Below are positions 10,008 through 64,000 of a stretch of 64,000 bases of DNA, piece by piece. Positions within the stretch are counted from its first letter, which is position 1. Every line of letters starts with the position of its first letter. The translations under genes and the position numbers were made by a program. The stretch is from Desulfatibacillum alkenivorans DSM 16219 (GTDB lineage: Bacteria > Desulfobacterota > Desulfobacteria > Desulfobacterales > Desulfatibacillaceae), in assembly GCF_900142135.1 (NCBI RefSeq), contig NZ_FQZU01000017.1, forward strand, positions 1 through 64,000, written 5' to 3'. The notes beneath the pieces are model-generated. The model searched no databases. It saw nothing but the letters and a program-made list of their open reading frames with translations, and was not told the origin of the DNA.

Positions 10008-11515
10008 CCCAACCTTCTTAACGCATTATATGCGTATAGCTGTACATAATAATGATCCGAATTTTTAACGATATCCTCAAGATATCCCGAGGGCCTGTCC
10101 CACGGCCTGCGGCCCAGAGCCCAAATTGCCTGACAGCGCACATTGGGCGAAGGATCCTTTAGCAGAAACAGCAAGTCCTTAAGGCTTTCCTTGTCCTGAT
10201 TATGGGCCAGAACCCTGGCCAGCCAATAGCGCTCGGCCATCTTGGGGCTATGGAGCAAATCATCATAGGCGGCGTGTTCGCGGATGTTCAGGTCCTTACT
10301 CATATAATTGCGCAGGCCGGCCAGGCGCTCCCTGGAAGAAGACGATTCCAGCAATTCCTGGGGCGGCTTGCCTTCCTGCCCCCTGTGCGCAAAATAGGCC
10401 AATTGCGTGTACAAGGACAAGCCGATGACCATCCAGACGGCTGCGGTTATAGCCGCGCCTTTTTTCCGGCCAAGCCATATGGAAGCAAGCCCTGCCATAA
10501 TGCTGAACAGAAAGGTGTAAATCCCCATGGGAAGCCCCAGCAGGAGGCTGCTGTACACCGTGCTGCGGAAGTTCTTCTGCAGGTCGCATTGATCGGCCAG
10601 GGCTTCCAAATGCTTCCCCGGAGCGTGCAGGAAGTCTTTGTATGTAAGGCTTTCTATTTTCCGGCCGCACCAGCCTTCAAGGATAAACGGGGCATCCTTG
10701 CCGTCGCCGTAGGTTATGACGATGTCCGCCGCATTTTTATCTTCCACGACAAAATAGTACGCGGCCAGCAGTTTATTGCGTAAAACCATCTTCTTTTTGG
10801 AGTTCGGATTGCCGGACAAATAAACCGTACGCATGGCCCGTTTGTCCAGGGGTTTAAAAGTGCGTGCAGCATACAATGTATAGTCGTAGTAAAAATCGTT
10901 CACCGCCAGGCCGGGCTTGTTATTCAGCAAAATGGCGTCCCGCAAATCCACAAAAGGGTCTTTGGAAGATTGGAAAGCCCAGAGCAGGCCCAGAATCACC
11001 ACCGGCAGGACGAAAAAGAATTGCGGCGCCCAGCCTCGGGAGGGCTGCCGCCTTAAGAGGATGTTACGCCTCCACATGATCGCCGCCGGCGCAGGCGGGA
11101 TCAGGATGAAAAAGGCGGTTTGCTGCCAGCTGCCCCAATTGGCGTTAAGAAAAAAGAAATACGCCCAAAACAAAAGAAAGATGCAAAGGCCGGCCCAAAA
11201 TCGCTGTATTTTGCCGCAAAACATGCCCACGGCCATAAAAACCAGAGAAAGCCCAACGCCCAGGGTAAATGTGTAAAACACAGCGGAAAAAAAAGCGGTT
11301 TTGAATTCCAGCAGCAGGGGCTGGACAATTTTGTTCGGGACGACCAAATATCCCTGAGAATTCAAAACCTGGAGTATGGCGTGATACTCCTGGTTGGAAG
11401 CATAAATCCACAATGCAGCAATAATATGGCATACGGCCATGCCGGATAGCAGAGCAACAGGCGGGCTTAGAAGCCAGGGAATCCTGTTTTCAGCAATTTC
11501 GGAATCAGACGTCAA
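9989..11515 (-). CDS. Multi-pass membrane protein with C-terminal HEAT-like repeats
   Basis: A 508-residue protein with about five hydrophobic helices in the first 180 residues, a roughly 130-residue extracytoplasmic segment (starting SKDPFVDLRDAILLN), a further pair of helices near residues 320-370, and a soluble C-terminal tail. The tail has helical repeat character: SSSRERLAGLRNY, MAERYWLARVLA, PSPNVRCQAIWALGRRPWD and YVQLYAYNALRRLGW resemble HEAT repeats, which mediate protein contacts. I do not recognise the membrane part. As the first gene of the envelope operon (then protease, PBP, acetyltransferase) it may scaffold envelope proteins; this is inference. Confidence 0.75.
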   Translation of the reverse strand: MTSDSEIAENRIPWLLSPPVALLSGMAVCHIIAALWIYASNQEYHAILQVLNSQGYLVVPNKIVQPLLLEFKTAFFSAVFYTFTLGVGLSLVFMAVGMFCGKIQRFWAGLCIFLLFWAYFFFLNANWGSWQQTAFFILIPPAPAAIMWRRNILLRRQPSRGWAPQFFFVLPVVILGLLWAFQSSKDPFVDLRDAILLNNKPGLAVNDFYYDYTLYAARTFKPLDKRAMRTVYLSGNPNSKKKMVLRNKLLAAYYFVVEDKNAADIVITYGDGKDAPFILEGWCGRKIESLTYKDFLHAPGKHLEALADQCDLQKNFRSTVYSSLLLGLPMGIYTFLFSIMAGLASIWLGRKKGAAITAAVWMVIGLSLYTQLAYFAHRGQEGKPPQELLESSSSRERLAGLRNYMSKDLNIREHAAYDDLLHSPKMAERYWLARVLAHNQDKESLKDLLFLLKDPSPNVRCQAIWALGRRPWDRPSGYLEDIVKNSDHYYVQLYAYNALRRLGWRQQI

Positions 11516-55214: not shown

Positions 55215-56888
55215 ATGGATGTTTTGCGCAGCGAAATCGCGGCGGAGCTTCTGGATGCGCTGGACGAGGCGTCGCAAAGCGTCTTTTACGTCATCCAGGA
55301 CGGAAAATTCGTATACGGCAACAAGAACGGATGCAGGATCACGGGGCTGAATCACCAGCGGGACGTATACGGAAAGCCCGCCTTAAAGTTCGTGCACCCG
55401 GATGACAAAAAGCTCATCGCGGAAATGACCCGCAAGGTGATGAACGGCGAAAGCATCCATCCCTTTGAGTGGCGTTTGCACACGGTGGACGGAAACATCG
55501 TGTGGGTCATGGGCTTTTTGGTCAGGATCAATTTTCGCGGCCGCCCTGCAGTCCTGGGAAGTTATATTGACATCAGCCGGACAAAGGAAACGTGGTCGGA
55601 GCTTCAGGAAACCAGCCGAAAGCTGGAGGAGGCCACTCTGAACATGCAACTGGTGCGGGAAGAGGAGCGTGCTCAGATTGGCTGGGAAATCCAGGAGAAC
55701 CTTGGATCAACCCTGGAGAGCCTGCGCACGGAAATCGAAGAGTTGTTTGAGGGCGGAAAATCGGACAAGGCCCCTGTCCTGCACAAGATTGACTTGGCGC
55801 AAGACGCTTTGTCCGGAATTTGGGCCCACATGAATTGGCGGGAAAAGGAGACCCCGGACTTAAACAGCGCGGTCAGGAGGCATGCCAGGGAAGTTGAAGA
55901 GCAAACCGGCAAAAAGGTGGAGCTAAGCCTTGCACGAAAGAAAATCAGCCTTGCTGCAAAGGACGCCGCCGCCATAGCCCGGTTATGCGGGGGAATGTTG
56001 AAGACGCTTGCTGACATCGGCGATTGGCAAGCCATGGAGGTCCATCTCGATTATAAAGGTCAACGCATTGAAGTGGAGTGCATCTGCCGCCCCCCCGATA
56101 AAGGCGGCCCGTCAATCCCGGGCATTGATGAAGCCCGTTTTCATCCTTTATCAAAACGGCTGAAAGAATGGGACGGCGGCCTGGCTCTTGACAAGCAGGA
56201 ACGCAAGCTCGTGCTAAAGGCCTCGTTTGCCCCGCCCTTCGCCTCGGGGGAGCGGCAAACCCGCATTTTGTTGGGAAGCGGGCAGCCCATCCTGCGGGAG
56301 GGAATTGTTCGGATTTTGTCGGGAATGGAAGATGCGGCCGTCGTGGAAGAAGCCTCCACCTTCCTGGAACTCATGGAGAGACTCAAGGATTTGGATTTTG
56401 ATTTGCTGCTTTTGGATACCGGCGTTCTGGGCGCCCAGGCGGTCCATAATCTCATGAGAATCAAGGAAGCCTCTCCATACACCCCCATCCTGACCCTAAC
56501 TCCGGACAGCGATGACGATGATTTCAGCGTTCGGATGCTTCGCCATGGCGCAGCAGGATGCCTGTCCCATTCCAGTAGCGTCAACGAATTAATAGCAGCC
56601 GTGCACAAGGTCGCCGCCGGCAGGAAGCATGTGAGCAATCGCATCGCCGAAAAACTGGCCTTTGAGGTGGACATATACGCGCCCAAACCTTTTCTATACA
56701 AACTTTCCGACCGGGAGCGCCAGGTCATGTTTATGATCGCCGAAGGCAAGACCATGAAGGAAATCGCCTCGGAGTTGCGCCTCAGCTACAAGACCATCGC
56801 AACGTACAGAGCCAGGGTGTTTGAAAAAATGCATATGCGAACCGACGCGCAAATTGTGCGCTATGTGGTTTCCAAAGGGCTGTTATAA
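55215..56888 (+). CDS. PAS / degenerate kinase helix / receiver / LuxR-HTH fusion protein
   Basis: A 557-residue soluble regulator. Residues about 15-125 are a PAS domain (VFYVIQDGKFVYGNKNGC, FEWRLHTVDGNIVWVMG). About 148-345 resemble the dimerisation and ATPase region of a NarX-type kinase, but the expected ELHDELG phospho-acceptor is EIQENLG, with Gln160 in place of His. About 350-465 is a receiver: TRILLGSGQPILREG (the usual Asp-Asp pocket is Ser-Gly) and LLLLDTGV (D401 kept). About 488-555 is a LuxR-type HTH, KLSDRERQVMFMIAEGKTMK. Phosphotransfer is therefore probably lost or altered. Divergent from the dehydratase-like gene. Confidence 0.85.
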   Translation: MDVLRSEIAAELLDALDEASQSVFYVIQDGKFVYGNKNGCRITGLNHQRDVYGKPALKFVHPDDKKLIAEMTRKVMNGESIHPFEWRLHTVDGNIVWVMGFLVRINFRGRPAVLGSYIDISRTKETWSELQETSRKLEEATLNMQLVREEERAQIGWEIQENLGSTLESLRTEIEELFEGGKSDKAPVLHKIDLAQDALSGIWAHMNWREKETPDLNSAVRRHAREVEEQTGKKVELSLARKKISLAAKDAAAIARLCGGMLKTLADIGDWQAMEVHLDYKGQRIEVECICRPPDKGGPSIPGIDEARFHPLSKRLKEWDGGLALDKQERKLVLKASFAPPFASGERQTRILLGSGQPILREGIVRILSGMEDAAVVEEASTFLELMERLKDLDFDLLLLDTGVLGAQAVHNLMRIKEASPYTPILTLTPDSDDDDFSVRMLRHGAAGCLSHSSSVNELIAAVHKVAAGRKHVSNRIAEKLAFEVDIYAPKPFLYKLSDRERQVMFMIAEGKTMKEIASELRLSYKTIATYRARVFEKMHMRTDAQIVRYVVSKGLL

Positions 56889-56964: not shown

Positions 56965-59322
56965 TTAAAAGTCCTTGAAATCATCATCGTCTTCAAAAGG
57001 GATTACCTGAGCAGGGCTGACCTCCTGGGACTGCTCCAGTTTTTTCTGCTTTGCGGCCGTCTTTGCGACCGGTTTGGCGCCTGCACGGCCGGAAGAGATA
57101 GCCAGAGGCTTTACATTGCCCTTCCTTTCGCTCCTTGCGTGTTTTTGACCGGCGCCTCCCACCAGGGCCAGCAATTCCTCCACCGAGCTTTTCATCACTT
57201 CCGCCTGAGCGTTCAACTCTTCGGATGCAGAAGCCGACTCTTCGGCGTTGGCGGCGTTCTGCTGGGTGACCTTGTCCATTTCGGAAACAGCCTTGTTGAC
57301 TTGCTCAATGCCTTGAGCCTGTTCGTTGGAGGCGGCTGAAATCTCGCCCACAAGCTCTCCAACTTTTTTGGCGCTTTCGGCAACCTGGCTGAAGGCTTCG
57401 TTTGTTCTGGTGACAATCTCTCCGCCGTCTCCCACCTTTTTCACCGTGGTTTCGATAAGGTCGGCGGTGTTTTTGGCGGCTTCGGCGGCGCGCATGGCCA
57501 GGTTGCGCACTTCGTCAGCCACAACGGCGAACCCGGCGCCGGCTTCTCCCGCCCGAGCCGCTTCCACGGCTGCGTTCAGGGCCAACAAGTTGGTCTGGAA
57601 GGCGATTTCATCGATGGTTTTGATAATTTTGGAGGTTTCTTCGCTGGCCTTGGAAATTTCCCCCATGGAAACGGTCAAATCCTCCATGGACTGATTGGCC
57701 ACGGCCACCACCTGATTGGCGTCCCTCATGAGCTTGTCGGCCTGATCCGCATTCTCGGCGTTCTGCTTGGTCATGGAGGACATTTCCTCCAGGGAGGAGG
57801 AAGTTTCCTCCAAGGAGGCCGCCTGCTCCGAAGCCCCTTCGGCCAGGGACTGGCTGGAGGAGGATACCTGGCCGGAGGCGGAAGCCACCTGCTCGGCGCC
57901 TTCATCCAGATCGGCGCTGATTTTCCCCAAAACCCTGGTCAGGCTGCGGGTGATAAAAATAGCCGCGCCAATGGCGGCCAACAGGCCGATGCTCAAACCG
58001 ATGATCATAACCACGGAGGCGGCGCCCAGCGAAGAGGCGGCTTCAACGGCGATTTCATCCGTACTTTGCAATCCCGCGTCCGCCGTGTTTTTACACACCT
58101 CGATTAATTTATTGCCGGCTTGCTCCCTTTGCGAGCCGATATTTTGGAGCTTTTTCCAGTTATCCAGGAACGCCGCCAAAGCGGCTGCGTATTGGTTTCC
58201 CGCCGCCTCAGTATTATCAATCTGCCCTATGTTGGCCTGGTTCCTGGTTATTTTTCTCAAGGCGGCATATTTGACGTCCATTTTGGGAAAGTTTTCCAAG
58301 GCGCTTTGAATGAGCTTGGGATCTCTGGTCGCCATGGATTTGAAGGCTTTGACCCGGGTGTCGTTGCCCAGGTCAATGATATCATTGACCAGGAATATTT
58401 TCTCGTTGCGCTCCAACATTTCACTGCGAAGTTGATTCTGCTGGGACTTCAAAAAGGACTCGCAATTGGACACGTATTTTCCGGCGGCGTCGTCCATATT
58501 TCCGCGTTGCCTTTCCAAGACATTGCGGTCTGCATAGTCGCCCTTTTTGAATTCCTCCAGGAACCCGTTCATGGCGGACCCGTAAGCGGCTGCGGCGGCC
58601 TCGGTTTCGTCAATTTGCTTGATGTTAGCCTGATTGCGGGTGACGGCCCTTAAGGCGTTGGTGTGGTCTTTCAAGTCCACCAGCATCAGAATGGCCTTCT
58701 CCATCATGTCAGCGTCTCCGCTGGCCTGGGCTTTGAAGTTCGTCACCCTAACCTGAGTGCCTAAGTCCACGATCTCTGAAACAATGGCGACTTTCTTCTG
58801 TCTGTCCTCCAAATTAGTTTGAAAGGCGGTTTTCTGGTCTTCCAGAAAAGCGGCGCAGTTTGTCATAAAGGCGGCCGCGTTGGCGTCCAGTTTGGCCCTT
58901 TGATCGTCCATTTCCGCAATGGTGCTTTTGGTCTGTTTGATCAGAGCTTCATAATCGTTGGTCGCCTTGTGAGCATCGTCCACCTGCCCTTTCAAGGCTT
59001 TCAGGTGGATGGATTTATCCGCAAGCTCTGCGGCCTCGTCCAAGTGCCGCTTCACCGCCGCCAGTTCCTCGTTCGCGGCCTGCAGGTATTTGTCCTCTTC
59101 ACTCATGCCATAGCCGCGCATCTGGTACATCAGGCGGTTGGCGGCGCCGCGCAATGCTGACGTCACCGCCACCTCAGGCACGTATTCATGGGCGAGCTTA
59201 TTCGAGTCCGCCTCCACGCTTTTCATGTTGTAGATAGCCATGCCGCCCAACCCCATGGCGATCAGAATGACTATCGTGAATCCCAATATAATTCGCTGCC
59301 CAACGGTCATTTGCTTTCCCAT
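56965..59322 (-). CDS. Methyl-accepting chemotaxis protein with duplicated periplasmic sensor module
   Basis: A 785-residue transmembrane chemoreceptor starting at ATG 59322 ([15 protein letters not shown]), with AAGGAG upstream; another start 18 bases earlier is less likely. Helix one is about residues 10-32. The long periplasmic region (to about 445) contains two similar helical modules: one with [19 protein letters not shown] and [16 protein letters not shown], one with [19 protein letters not shown] and [16 protein letters not shown]. Helix two follows ([20 protein letters not shown]), then the cytoplasmic signalling domain with [19 protein letters not shown] hairpin tip. The C-terminal tail ends in acidic DDDDFKDF. 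It may be a substrate for the CheD at 1993-2505. Confidence 0.92.
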
Positions 59323-59427
59323 AATGTCTCCTTTTTCCACGCATAGAGATTCTTGTAAAAATACAGCCTATTATTTTTCCGTTTTTGATTATTTTTCCGG
59401 TTTTGCTTATTTCCCCGGATAGTTGCC

Positions 59428-60993
59428 TTACCCGGTCTCTTCGGCCTGCATGATCTCCTTAACCATAATCCCCACATTTTTGGCGTCATCCAGGGTATGC
59501 ACCGCGCTGCTTGTTTGGCCTCGAGACCGCCACAGGACATGCAGGCGCGAAGGGTCGTAGTCATAGATTATGGCGGCGGACTCCGCCTGGGGATTATTCA
59601 AAACAAGGATTTGCGACAACAGGTAGCCCTCTTCAATGAGTTTGTCGATGATGGCGGGCAGCGTCTCGGAACCGGGCGCAATCACCATAAATATCAAGGA
59701 CCTTTTTTCACTGGGTAAAATGTCGAAACTCTCAATGCGCTTGACCATGCGTCCTACAAGATTCACGCCGCCTCCGCCGTAAATTTTGTCATGGGGGCTT
59801 ACGTGCGCCATGTACCCGAACCGTCCGGGGCGGGCAGCAAGAAATCCGGTGCAGGTGGATACGCCGAAGGTATGCAGCCGCTCTCCCTTTTTGGCCCACA
59901 AAAACTCGTCCATATCAATGCGAAGGGTTTTTGAGGACTGCGGGACGTCAAGGTCACGGGCGGGGGGGGCCGGCTGATTTTGGAGTTGATCCATCAACCT
60001 GTTTGCATAGTACTTCCGGTGGTCGGCGTAGTGCTGCGTAATGATTTCGTCCTTATCCATTTTTGCGACCACAAGCCAATGGACGCCCATGAAGGAAACC
60101 ACTTCAAAGGATGACAAGGCCTGGCATCCCCGGTAATCCGTAACCATGCGCCGGCCCCGGCCCTCCTTGAACTTGGCCTGGATGTTCCTGTCGTCCAGCT
60201 TTCTATTCAAAATACTGGAATCACCAGTAAAATTAGATTCCGTCAGCATAAGGCCATCTGCATTGACCAAAAAAGTCTCTCCGGTTTGCCCAAGACTTTC
60301 TATCCAGGCGAATATGGTGTTCACTTTGTTGACTGCCAGTTGAAGCACCAACCACCCCTGATGCTCATTTTTAATAAGCACCGGCTCCACAAAAAAGGCG
60401 GCGGGTTCGGCGGATGGGGCGTAATGGAAAAAATCCACAAAGCATTCTTCTTGCGGCTTTGCCTCCAGGCATTGAGACAAGCGGCTTCCGCCAGCCTCCC
60501 CGGTAATAAGGTTTGCGCCGGGAATATAATCCTTGCGCATGGAATGGATGATATCTCCGTTAAGAGTCACGAACAGGACGTCGTAAAAAGCGAAATAATT
60601 TTCGGCGAAGTAGACTGAAAGCGACCTTTCCAGTTCGTCGATCGTTTTTTCCAGTTCACGGGAGGAATGATTCTGGCTTTTGGCCTGGCTGTACTGCTGA
60701 TGAATGTCAAAACAGCCCGACATAAAAGGATCCTTGGCGACCTGACGCGCCAAGCCGTGAATCCGGTCGCAAAACCGGTGCAGGGCGGCTACCTTTTCTT
60801 CCCTGGCGTAATCCAGAGCTACATAGGCCCAATCGTACACCCCCATGGCGGCGCAAGGGGCGGGTGCGGCGCCCAATATTGAAAAAATGATAGTAATTAT
60901 CAATAAGCGCCTATGGTATGGGACATGCCATTTGAGGCTATCTACTTTATAATAAAGAATATTAATACGGGATGAATCCATTTTCCGCTGCAT
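59428..60993 (-). CDS. Exported Cache-type sensor with C-terminal CheD-like domain
   Basis: A 521-residue protein with an N-terminal signal or anchor helix (residues about 28-48, LLIITIIFSILGAAPAP) and no later membrane helix, so the bulk should be periplasmic. Residues about 60-330 look like a double Cache sensor (FYDVLFVTLNGDIIHSM, GETFLVNADGLMLTESN, SFEVVSFMGVHWLVVAKMD). Residues about 358-515 resemble CheD: FGVSTCTGFLAA supplies Cys381 with Thr375 upstream, GYMAHVSPHD supplies His397, 16 residues later, versus 17 in the true CheD of this window. If the domain is active it would be a deamidase on the wrong side of the membrane. A chemoreceptor gene lies next to it on the same strand. Confidence 0.7.
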   Translation of the reverse strand: MQRKMDSSRINILYYKVDSLKWHVPYHRRLLIITIIFSILGAAPAPCAAMGVYDWAYVALDYAREEKVAALHRFCDRIHGLARQVAKDPFMSGCFDIHQQYSQAKSQNHSSRELEKTIDELERSLSVYFAENYFAFYDVLFVTLNGDIIHSMRKDYIPGANLITGEAGGSRLSQCLEAKPQEECFVDFFHYAPSAEPAAFFVEPVLIKNEHQGWLVLQLAVNKVNTIFAWIESLGQTGETFLVNADGLMLTESNFTGDSSILNRKLDDRNIQAKFKEGRGRRMVTDYRGCQALSSFEVVSFMGVHWLVVAKMDKDEIITQHYADHRKYYANRLMDQLQNQPAPPARDLDVPQSSKTLRIDMDEFLWAKKGERLHTFGVSTCTGFLAARPGRFGYMAHVSPHDKIYGGGGVNLVGRMVKRIESFDILPSEKRSLIFMVIAPGSETLPAIIDKLIEEGYLLSQILVLNNPQAESAAIIYDYDPSRLHVLWRSRGQTSSAVHTLDDAKNVGIMVKEIMQAEETG

Positions 60994-61250: not shown

Positions 61251-64000
61251 TCACGCTTGGTCCAGCGCGGTCCGGACGACCTGGGCCAATTCCCTTTTTA
61301 CAACGGGTTTCATGACGTATCCCTGGATTCCCATGGAAGCGGCCTTTTCTTCGTCAATAAAATTGCTGAATCCCGTACAAATTATGACAGGCAGTTCTGG
61401 CCTGATTTTACGCATCTCCATGGCCAGTTGGTCGCCCGTCATGTTCGGCATGGTCATGTCTGTCACCAATAGATCAAAGGCGTGGGGCTCTTTTGTAAAT
61501 GATTCCAGAGCCAGCAGGCTTGAGGAGCAGGAAAAGACGTCATACCCAAGCCTTTCAAGAATTCTTTTTTCCAGTCTTTCCACGGGCGCCTCGTCGTCCA
61601 CCAGCAAAATTTTCTCCGATCCCCCAGGAACGGGCGTTTCTTCCGTTTTTTCCCCGCCCTCGAAACCCCGCTCCTTAATGGGCAGGTAGACGCTGAACTT
61701 CGTCCCTCGCCCGGATTCGCTAAAGACCCTTACGGCGCCTTGGGCCGAAGTCACTATACCGTGCACCACCGAAAGCCCCAGGCCCGTGCCTTTGCCTCTT
61801 GGCTTGGTGGTGTAATAGGGGTCGAAAATCCGTTCAAGAACCTTGTCTTCAAGCCCTACGCCCGTGTCAGACACAATGAGCACGGCATATTTCCCCCCTG
61901 ACAGTTCAGGAAAAGACGGGTCATTGGAAGGTATGGCGGTCTCCTTAAGTTTCACCGTGAGGGCGCCTCCCGTCATTTCCATGGCATGATAGGCATTCGT
62001 CGCCAAATTCATGACTATTTGATGAATCTGCGTGGGATCGGCCATCACGATGCCGCACTCCGCAGCAATGTCCAGTTGAAAATCGATGGTGGTCGGAATG
62101 GCGCCGCGGAGCAGCTTCATGGCTTCCTTGATAATCGGCTGAAGCCGGAGAGGCCTGATTTCCTGATTGTCCTGGCGGCTGAAGGTTAAAATCTGCTTGA
62201 CCAGTTCCCTGGCTCTTAAAGCGGCGTGAAAAACCTCCTCCACATAGTTCTGCATGGAACTGTCAGGGGGGATGTCTTCTTTAAGCATTTCGGTAAACCC
62301 AAAAATGGGCGTTAATATATTATTGAAATCATGGGCGATCCCTCCTGCCAGAGTCCCGATGGCCTCCATCTTCTGGGACTGGGCCAGGCGCTCTTCCAGT
62401 TGGATTTCCTCGGTGATATCCCGTTTCACGCCAATGTAATTGGTGATTTCGCCGTTCTTATCCATTACCGGAGAAATGGAGGCCTTTTCGGTGAAAAAGC
62501 CGCCGTCCTTGGTTTTATTAACCATGCGGCCTTCCCAGGTGCGGCCGCTGCTTATGGTTTGCCACATCTGAGCGTAAAAGGCCTCATCCTGCTCTCCGCT
62601 TTTTAGTATATTGGGGTTGCGGCCGATCACTTCCTCCCTGGAGTACCCGGATACCCTTTCAAATGAGGGATTGACGTATTGGATGTTTCCATCCGCATCG
62701 GTAATGACGATGGTTTCTCCGCTTTGCTCCACGGCCTGAATCAAACGCTCCCGGTCAGCCTCGGTTTTCCTGCTTTCCGAAACATCCGCAAAAATGCAGG
62801 CAAACTGCCCGGGGGCGGGTCTGTATGCGGTCACGTAAAAATGCCGGTCCAATGCCATGGAGTAATTTTCAAACGAAATGGGCTCGCCCGTTAAAGCCAC
62901 TTTTCCATAGGCTTCAATCCAGCTTTTTTCTGTGAGCGGCAAGACCTCCAGCACCCGCTTGCCCAGGATGTCTTCCCCTTTTAATCCGGTCATTCTTTCA
63001 AAGGCGGGGTTAATCGCCAGAAAACGATAATCCACGGGCTTTCCATCGTCATCGCAAATAATCTCATGGAGCGCAAACCCGTCCATCATCTCTTCAAACA
63101 AGGACTTGAAGTCCCTTTCCACCTTCCTATGTTCGGTGATGTCCCGGCAAATCCCCAAAACCGAGGTCAGTTGTTTTTTGGCGTCCCGCACGGGGACGAA
63201 ACGCACATTATACATTTTGGCGGGATGCTTCCCTGTAACAACAAGTTCGGACTCGCAGCCGGCGTTTGTAGTGAAAACCCGGTTCAAACCCTTATCGAGA
63301 AATGCCGCCTGATACTCGGGATAGCCAAGCTCCCTATGGGTTTTTCCAATTCCCTGCCCGGGAGCCAGGCCCATGACCTCTGCGGCTTTATCGGAAATAA
63401 AAAGGTACCGCCCCTTCCTGTCCATGCGGAACAGTAAATCCGGCAGGCCTTCCAACAGCGCTCTTTGCCTGGCCTGGTTTTCTTCCATGGTTTCCTGCAT
63501 GCGGATTCTTGCAGCGACCCTGCCGAGCCTTTCGGCCAGTGCGTGCAGAAGGTCCGCCTCTTCTCTCAAAAACGCCTCGCCGTCATGGAGCGGAGGCGCT
63601 TTCAAATATCCGGCTTCGATGACGCCGAGCCTTTCGCCTTCCACTTCAATGGGAGTGGAAACCTTGAGCGCCGTGTCCTTGTAGTTTTCCGTGGCGTAGG
63701 TTTGCCCCTCAAAGGAAATGCCGGCCCAGGCCATGGATGAATGCCGGAGTCCATGGGGGATAAGCTCCACGCACCCGCGGATAATTTCCTCCAGGGTAAT
63801 CCCAGGCGTTTCCACCAGGCGTCCCAGCCCATACAGGCACTGGAGTTCGCTGACCCTTTTGCGCAGGAATTCTTCCGCGCGCCTCATCTCCGTAATGTCC
63901 GACATTACCGCCTGCACCTGGTCGGGATGTTCTCCCCCATGGGAGAATCGCGGAACAATGCTGAGTTGAATCCAGCGGTATTCCTTCAATTTGGGGTTAT
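61251..64000 (-). CDS. Multi-PAS hybrid histidine kinase (5' end outside window)
   Basis: The frame is open to the window edge, so the N-terminus is missing; TTG at 63989 is internal. The visible part, in order: the end of a PAS/PAC (WIQLSIVPRFSHGG), a GAF-like domain (LYGLGRLVETPGITLEEI), PAS (GLPDLLFRMDRKGRYLFIS), PAS (LFEEMMDGFALHEIICDD), PAS (ETIVITDADGNIQYVNPSF), the HisKA helix with phospho-acceptor GGIAHDFNNIL, an HATPase domain (VSDTGVGLEDKVLERIFD, GTGLGLSVVHGIV) and a C-terminal receiver (KILLVDDEAPVERLEK, LLVTDMTMPNMTG). All catalytic residues seem present. It may phosphorylate a partner regulator; the fusion protein at 55215 is one candidate but its receiver is atypical. Confidence 0.92.
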   Translation of the reverse strand, partial: NPKLKEYRWIQLSIVPRFSHGGEHPDQVQAVMSDITEMRRAEEFLRKRVSELQCLYGLGRLVETPGITLEEIIRGCVELIPHGLRHSSMAWAGISFEGQTYATENYKDTALKVSTPIEVEGERLGVIEAGYLKAPPLHDGEAFLREEADLLHALAERLGRVAARIRMQETMEENQARQRALLEGLPDLLFRMDRKGRYLFISDKAAEVMGLAPGQGIGKTHRELGYPEYQAAFLDKGLNRVFTTNAGCESELVVTGKHPAKMYNVRFVPVRDAKKQLTSVLGICRDITEHRKVERDFKSLFEEMMDGFALHEIICDDDGKPVDYRFLAINPAFERMTGLKGEDILGKRVLEVLPLTEKSWIEAYGKVALTGEPISFENYSMALDRHFYVTAYRPAPGQFACIFADVSESRKTEADRERLIQAVEQSGETIVITDADGNIQYVNPSFERVSGYSREEVIGRNPNILKSGEQDEAFYAQMWQTISSGRTWEGRMVNKTKDGGFFTEKASISPVMDKNGEITNYIGVKRDITEEIQLEERLAQSQKMEAIGTLAGGIAHDFNNILTPIFGFTEMLKEDIPPDSSMQNYVEEVFHAALRARELVKQILTFSRQDNQEIRPLRLQPIIKEAMKLLRGAIPTTIDFQLDIAAECGIVMADPTQIHQIVMNLATNAYHAMEMTGGALTVKLKETAIPSNDPSFPELSGGKYAVLIVSDTGVGLEDKVLERIFDPYYTTKPRGKGTGLGLSVVHGIVTSAQGAVRVFSESGRGTKFSVYLPIKERGFEGGEKTEETPVPGGSEKILLVDDEAPVERLEKRILERLGYDVFSCSSSLLALESFTKEPHAFDLLVTDMTMPNMTGDQLAMEMRKIRPELPVIICTGFSNFIDEEKAASMGIQGYVMKPVVKRELAQVVRTALDQA

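Follow-up and report, generated by a model that had tools for sequence, protein, structure and literature searches.

A predicted exported Cache protein with a CheD-like cysteine-hydrolase domain, encoded beside a chemoreceptor in Desulfatibacillum alkenivorans

The window analysed here is a stretch of 64,000 nucleotides from Desulfatibacillum alkenivorans DSM 16219 (assembly GCF_900142135.1, contig NZ_FQZU01000017.1, positions 1 to 64,000). Close to its end, upstream of a chemoreceptor gene, lies a gene for a protein which combines a Cache sensor region with a CheD-like domain (59428..60993). The open reading frame, already proposed in a preliminary description of this DNA, is real and occupies the minus strand, with an ATG at 60993, the stop at 59428 and a stop-free translation of 521 residues; full-length homologues share 27-63% identity with it. 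The N-terminal export signal named in that description was recovered as a hydrophobic segment, either a signal peptide or a signal anchor, which spans residues 29-49 (60847..60909, minus strand) and ends in an A-x-A-like site. In the hydrophobicity scan this segment (about residues 30-48) reaches a Kyte-Doolittle value of 2.17 at residue 30, while the rest of the protein never rises above 1.54 and contains no second membrane segment. All homologues are likewise predicted to carry an export segment, in several cases with a lipobox, and none has a second membrane segment. An extracytoplasmic location is therefore predicted from the sequence with high confidence.

The sensor region corresponds to a dCache_1-type domain (Pfam PF02743) at residues 74-310 (60064..60774, minus strand). 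The profile match (E = 3.4e-7, 30.5 bits) stays under the curated cut-off of 45 bits. However, because 32 of the 34 full-length homologues also match dCache_1 at E<=0.001 (best 4e-17), we count the region as a member of this family, which bears out the Cache-like sensor of the preliminary description. A profile of the full-length protein found no Cache relative among solved structures, and for this reason no ligand can be suggested for the domain. The remaining part of the protein, the CheD-like cysteine-hydrolase domain, comprises residues 355-521 (59431..59931, minus strand), and none of the Pfam or NCBIfam models matches residues 345-521. The gene product is predicted to be a two-domain exported protein, either periplasmic or membrane-anchored. 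It shares its class of extracytoplasmic sensor with the dCache chemoreceptors and kinases (PF02743). In contrast to those proteins, which cross the membrane and pass their signal on to domains in the cytoplasm, it lacks a second membrane segment and is predicted to have its output domain outside.

The AlphaFold2 model of the CheD-like domain, built from an alignment of 38 sequences which held no CheD sequence, has a predicted local distance difference test score (pLDDT) of 94.6 and a predicted template modelling score of 0.89; a model of the full protein made without any alignment was uninformative (pLDDT 34.6). Comparing the predicted fold with CheD had been recommended as a check, and residues 345-521 do take up the CheD fold in the model. 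Foldseek against the PDB places CheD of Thermotoga maritima (2f9z_C) on top with an E-value of 1.3e-7, followed by NTAN1 and YfiH/YlmD, and VIA-align gives CheD a Z-score of 14.7 (root-mean-square deviation 2.4 Å, 134 residues aligned). NTAN1 (11.1), YlmD (10.7), BLF1 (9.6) and CNF (about 7.5) follow at lower ranks, and unrelated folds stay below 4. All of these best matches have the alpha-beta-beta sandwich fold and belong to one superfamily. The pattern by which this superfamily is recognised, a Cys and a His with a Thr or Ser six residues before the Cys, is present as Thr375, Cys381 and His397. On the strength of the model we consider the fold, and with it membership of the CNF1/YfiH/CheD-like cysteine hydrolase superfamily, as almost certain.

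At the sequence level the resemblance is faint but agrees with the structural result. A profile of the domain searched against 177,635 PDB sequences again ranked T. maritima CheD first, with an E-value of only 0.12 and with Thr21, Cys27 and His44 aligned to Thr375, Cys381 and His397. Alignment to 23 CheDs by hhalign was in register as well (E = 0.019), at a low probability of 2.5%. The CheD models of Pfam and NCBIfam match neither the protein itself nor any of the 38 domain homologues or 34 full-length homologues. The protein is thus outside the CheD family as Pfam defines it, and predicted to be in another compartment; it is best described as a new, extracytoplasmic family within the CNF1/YfiH/CheD-like superfamily. 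With CheD proper (PF03975; T. maritima 2F9Z) it has in common the fold, the register of the three residues and the association with genes for methyl-accepting chemotaxis proteins (MCPs), cheW and cheA. Unlike CheD it is predicted to be exported, it is fused to a Cache domain, and it would have no possibility of meeting CheC, which is cytoplasmic. The N-terminal asparagine amidohydrolase NTAN1 (6A0F) differs in being eukaryotic and intracellular and in having an appended C-terminal region which confines its activity to N-terminal Asn. YlmD/YfiH (Cu-oxidase_4 / DUF152), which shares the fold, is a single-domain cysteine hydrolase without a sensor domain and without receptor linkage, and a cytoplasmic housekeeping protein.

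Homologues combining a Cache region with a CheD-like domain, which the preliminary description had proposed to look for, are present in many phyla. A whole-genome search in relatives found full-length homologues at 63, 56, 47 and 34% identity, the nearest named relative being that in Desulfatibacillum sp. MAG7, and the domain alignment, run against 84,980 species genomes, yielded 38 loci. Most of these are from Thermodesulfobacteriota (Desulfobacterota); the others are from Planctomycetota, Verrucomicrobiota, Myxococcota, Bacteroidota, Gemmatimonadota, Deferribacterota, Omnitrophota, Sumerlaeota and Neomarinimicrobiota, about ten phyla in total, where the phylum names are those in the submitters' titles and many of the genomes are metagenome bins. 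The family is sparse: it occurs in 13 of the 389 genomes from the class and in 3 of the 297 from the phylum. Complete homologues all share one layout, in which an export segment or lipobox is followed by some 300 residues containing the Cache domain and then by the CheD-like domain. Among viral contigs none encoding the CheD-like domain was found, and the plasmid matches cover the Cache part alone and not the CheD-like domain. A literature search, to which most subscription journals were out of reach, found no paper on a secreted CheD or a CheD fused to Cache.

The catalytic triad of CheD consists of Cys27, His44 and Thr21 (PMC7022378). Their counterparts, in register with 2f9z_C, are the predicted nucleophile Cys381 (59851..59853), His397 (59803..59805) and Thr375 (59869..59871), all on the minus strand. 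The spacing described earlier, with Thr375 six residues before Cys381 and His397 sixteen residues after it, was confirmed, and the CheD with which it had been compared, at 1993-2505 of the window, passes the Pfam CheD model with an E-value of 3e-23. Cys381 and His397, whose conservation in homologues had been set beforehand as a point to examine, are both invariant, as are Thr375, Gly377, Tyr394, Ser399, Asp402 and Tyr405 (39 of 39 alignment rows, checked also with 38 rows). The distance from Thr to Cys is six without exception; from Cys to His it is 16, but 17 in one homologue, 17 being also the spacing in CheD. Since the 38 loci were retrieved by motif searches centred on Thr/Cys or on His, conservation of the triad there is partly selected. 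Profile-only searches, which are free of this selection, gave the same conservation, and the homologues detected in this way keep the triad wherever it is spanned (for example L079). Because the pattern is invariant in all spanning homologues and the predicted fold is that of CheD, we do not regard it as a chance resemblance.

In NTAN1, where the equivalent residues are Ser69, Cys75 and His92, mutation of the Cys or the His abolishes activity (PMC7022378). Between an enzyme and an adaptor, the two roles which the preliminary description left open, the invariant triad favours the enzyme, and judged from sequence conservation the CheD-like domain is likely to be an active thiol amidohydrolase. 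A non-enzymatic co-receptor, in which the Cache domain is the ligand-binding part and the CheD-like domain does no more than dock on the outer helices of the receptor in the manner of a solute-binding protein, has a precedent in CheD of Bacillus subtilis, which works mainly via binding to the receptor and to CheC and not via deamidation (PMC3513319). However, docking alone does not require a Thr, Cys and His invariant over about ten phyla, and we consider this explanation unlikely.

The chemoreceptor gene next on the same strand, noticed already in the preliminary description, encodes downstream an MCP (56965..59340, minus strand; MCPsignal E = 5e-45) whose periplasmic sensor, at about residues 31-440, is a tandem helical one of HBM/4HB-like type (HBM E = 6e-5, below the cut-off); we propose this MCP as the partner. 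The genome has 27 MCPs and this is the only one with such a sensor. A same-strand MCP within 150 bp was found in 12 of the 38 loci (chance about 4e-18 in a rough model which ignores kinship), from Thermodesulfobacteriota, Verrucomicrobiota, Myxococcota and Planctomycetota; it lies downstream in L032-L037, L043 and L050 and upstream in L044, L047, L054 and L056. Nine of these 12 adjacent MCPs have the sensor type of the MCP in the window; that of L050 also has an HBM domain, and that of L044 is truncated. In L040 an HBM-HAMP-PAS receptor adjoins the gene and is cut by the contig end. In six further loci (L045, L046, L057, L061, L067, L068) cheW, cheA or an MCP is no more than 2.6 kb away, and in L033 and L037 the gene sits between cheW and the MCP. 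In the sample of the class the full-length sensor occurs in 9 of the 13 genomes that have the protein versus 30 of the 376 that lack it (Fisher p = 2e-7, uncorrected for kinship). The gene is thus found preferentially in chemosensory clusters beside receptors, mostly those with an HBM-like all-helical outer sensor. This sensor is modular: when the MCP of the window is set beside those of L034, L035, L037, L054 and L056, some of the homologues have extra copies of a helical module of about 100 residues, and therefore its length varies.

It is very unlikely that the protein serves signalling other than chemotaxis, for example together with the histidine kinase upstream, the receptor being a bystander in this genome. 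The same strand does encode a MASE3-PAS hybrid kinase upstream (from 61251 past the end of the window), and several homologues have no chemotaxis gene nearby. However, the gene has a receptor neighbour in distant phyla too, on one side or the other, and no other MCP of the genome has the shared sensor.

As the best explanation overall, to which we give a probability of roughly 0.42, we propose an exported, Cache-gated CheD-fold thiol amidohydrolase which alters the neighbouring receptor from outside. Binding of a ligand to the Cache domain would gate or position the CheD-like domain, an active thiol amidohydrolase in this proposal, which would then change the signalling of the receptor from the outer side, most likely by hydrolysis of side-chain amides (Gln/Asn) on its helical sensor. 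This would mirror, without control by CheC, the action of CheD on the inner receptor helices. The natural targets of CheD are Gln residues in receptor helices, which become deamidated (PMC7022378). The outer sensor of the receptor is helical too, with conserved Gln and Asn.

Several observations weigh against this proposal. The adjoining receptor of L043 has a dCache_2 sensor instead, and 30 of the 389 genomes of the class have the full-length receptor sensor without the Cache-CheD-like protein. Since, in addition, about half of the loci have the protein away from receptor genes (some of the contigs being short), it can be at most an accessory. Where the protein is missing, this receptor is often part of a cheW-MCP-cheA cluster, and therefore the protein is an optional extra in a pathway that exists without it. 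When sensors accompanied by the protein were compared with those lacking it, no Gln or Asn emerged as clearly diagnostic of its presence, and most are conserved in both sets; N154 is a weak lead only (82% versus 8%), confounded by kinship. In the receptor the CheD/CheR target motif is confined to the cytoplasmic part and missing from the outer domain, and CheD of B. subtilis needs binding more than catalysis (PMC3513319). That the receptor is the direct target of the CheD-like domain is a tentative claim, which we hold to be somewhat less probable than its opposite, and the outer helices as substrate are speculative.

A different substrate for the same enzyme has to be considered here, namely a small amide, a peptide or a cell-wall fragment, processed under control of the Cache domain, with the receptor sensing the product or the loss of the substrate. 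The superfamily has enzymes acting on non-protein substrates, and YfiH structures with UDP-MurNAc (UDP-N-acetylmuramic acid) are among the structural matches. Outside the triad CheD and the CheD-like domain differ in their invariant residues, so that the substrate may differ as well; the many loci without a receptor neighbour also fit. YfiH/YlmD score below CheD, however, and the conserved linkage to one type of receptor sensor is more easily explained by direct contact. We judge such a substrate to be improbable, although a better candidate than the mere docking discussed above. On the whole, the protein is probably a Cache-controlled amidohydrolase of chemosensory pathways.

The surroundings of the gene and of its homologues offer some further observations. 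The hybrid histidine kinase upstream (MASE3, several PAS, HisKA and receiver domains; 61251-63998) runs on to about 65156 of the contig (C48), and beyond it lie genes resembling those of ABC transporters and one for a PBP-like binding protein. On the other side, a gene at 55215-56888 (plus strand) encodes a protein of 557 residues in which a PAS domain precedes a receiver and a LuxR-type helix-turn-helix, an uncharacterised stretch lying in between. Six CheD matches are present in the genome; some of these, and some of those in relatives, fall within open frames about 450 residues long, which may encode CheD fusions. In the homologue of L040 (6867-8498) about 35 residues between signal sequence and Cache domain resemble, by eye and unscored, the N-terminus of a carbonic anhydrase. 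L057 encodes at 10704-11405 a carbonic anhydrase (Pro_CA E = 4e-44) whose N-terminus resembles a signal sequence; its gene lies between cheW and the MCP, which has the sensor type of the MCP in the window. These traces may hint at sensing of CO2 or bicarbonate; across the homologue loci such a linkage was seen at one locus only.

Covalent adaptation of chemoreceptors by methylation and deamidation acts on cytoplasmic helices. A counterpart of CheD outside the cytoplasm, namely an exported deamidase which is gated by a ligand and covalently modifies the outer sensor of its cognate chemoreceptor, would bring adaptation or activation to the outside of the membrane as well; in this specific form we regard the idea as doubtful, with about half the odds of its being wrong. 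In the broader sense, with an exported, sensor-coupled CheD-fold enzyme linked to one class of receptor, either covalent tuning of receptors or processing of a substrate coupled to taxis would take place on the outer side. An unannotated domain family of about ten phyla also gains a predicted fold and active site, together with a partner that can be tested.
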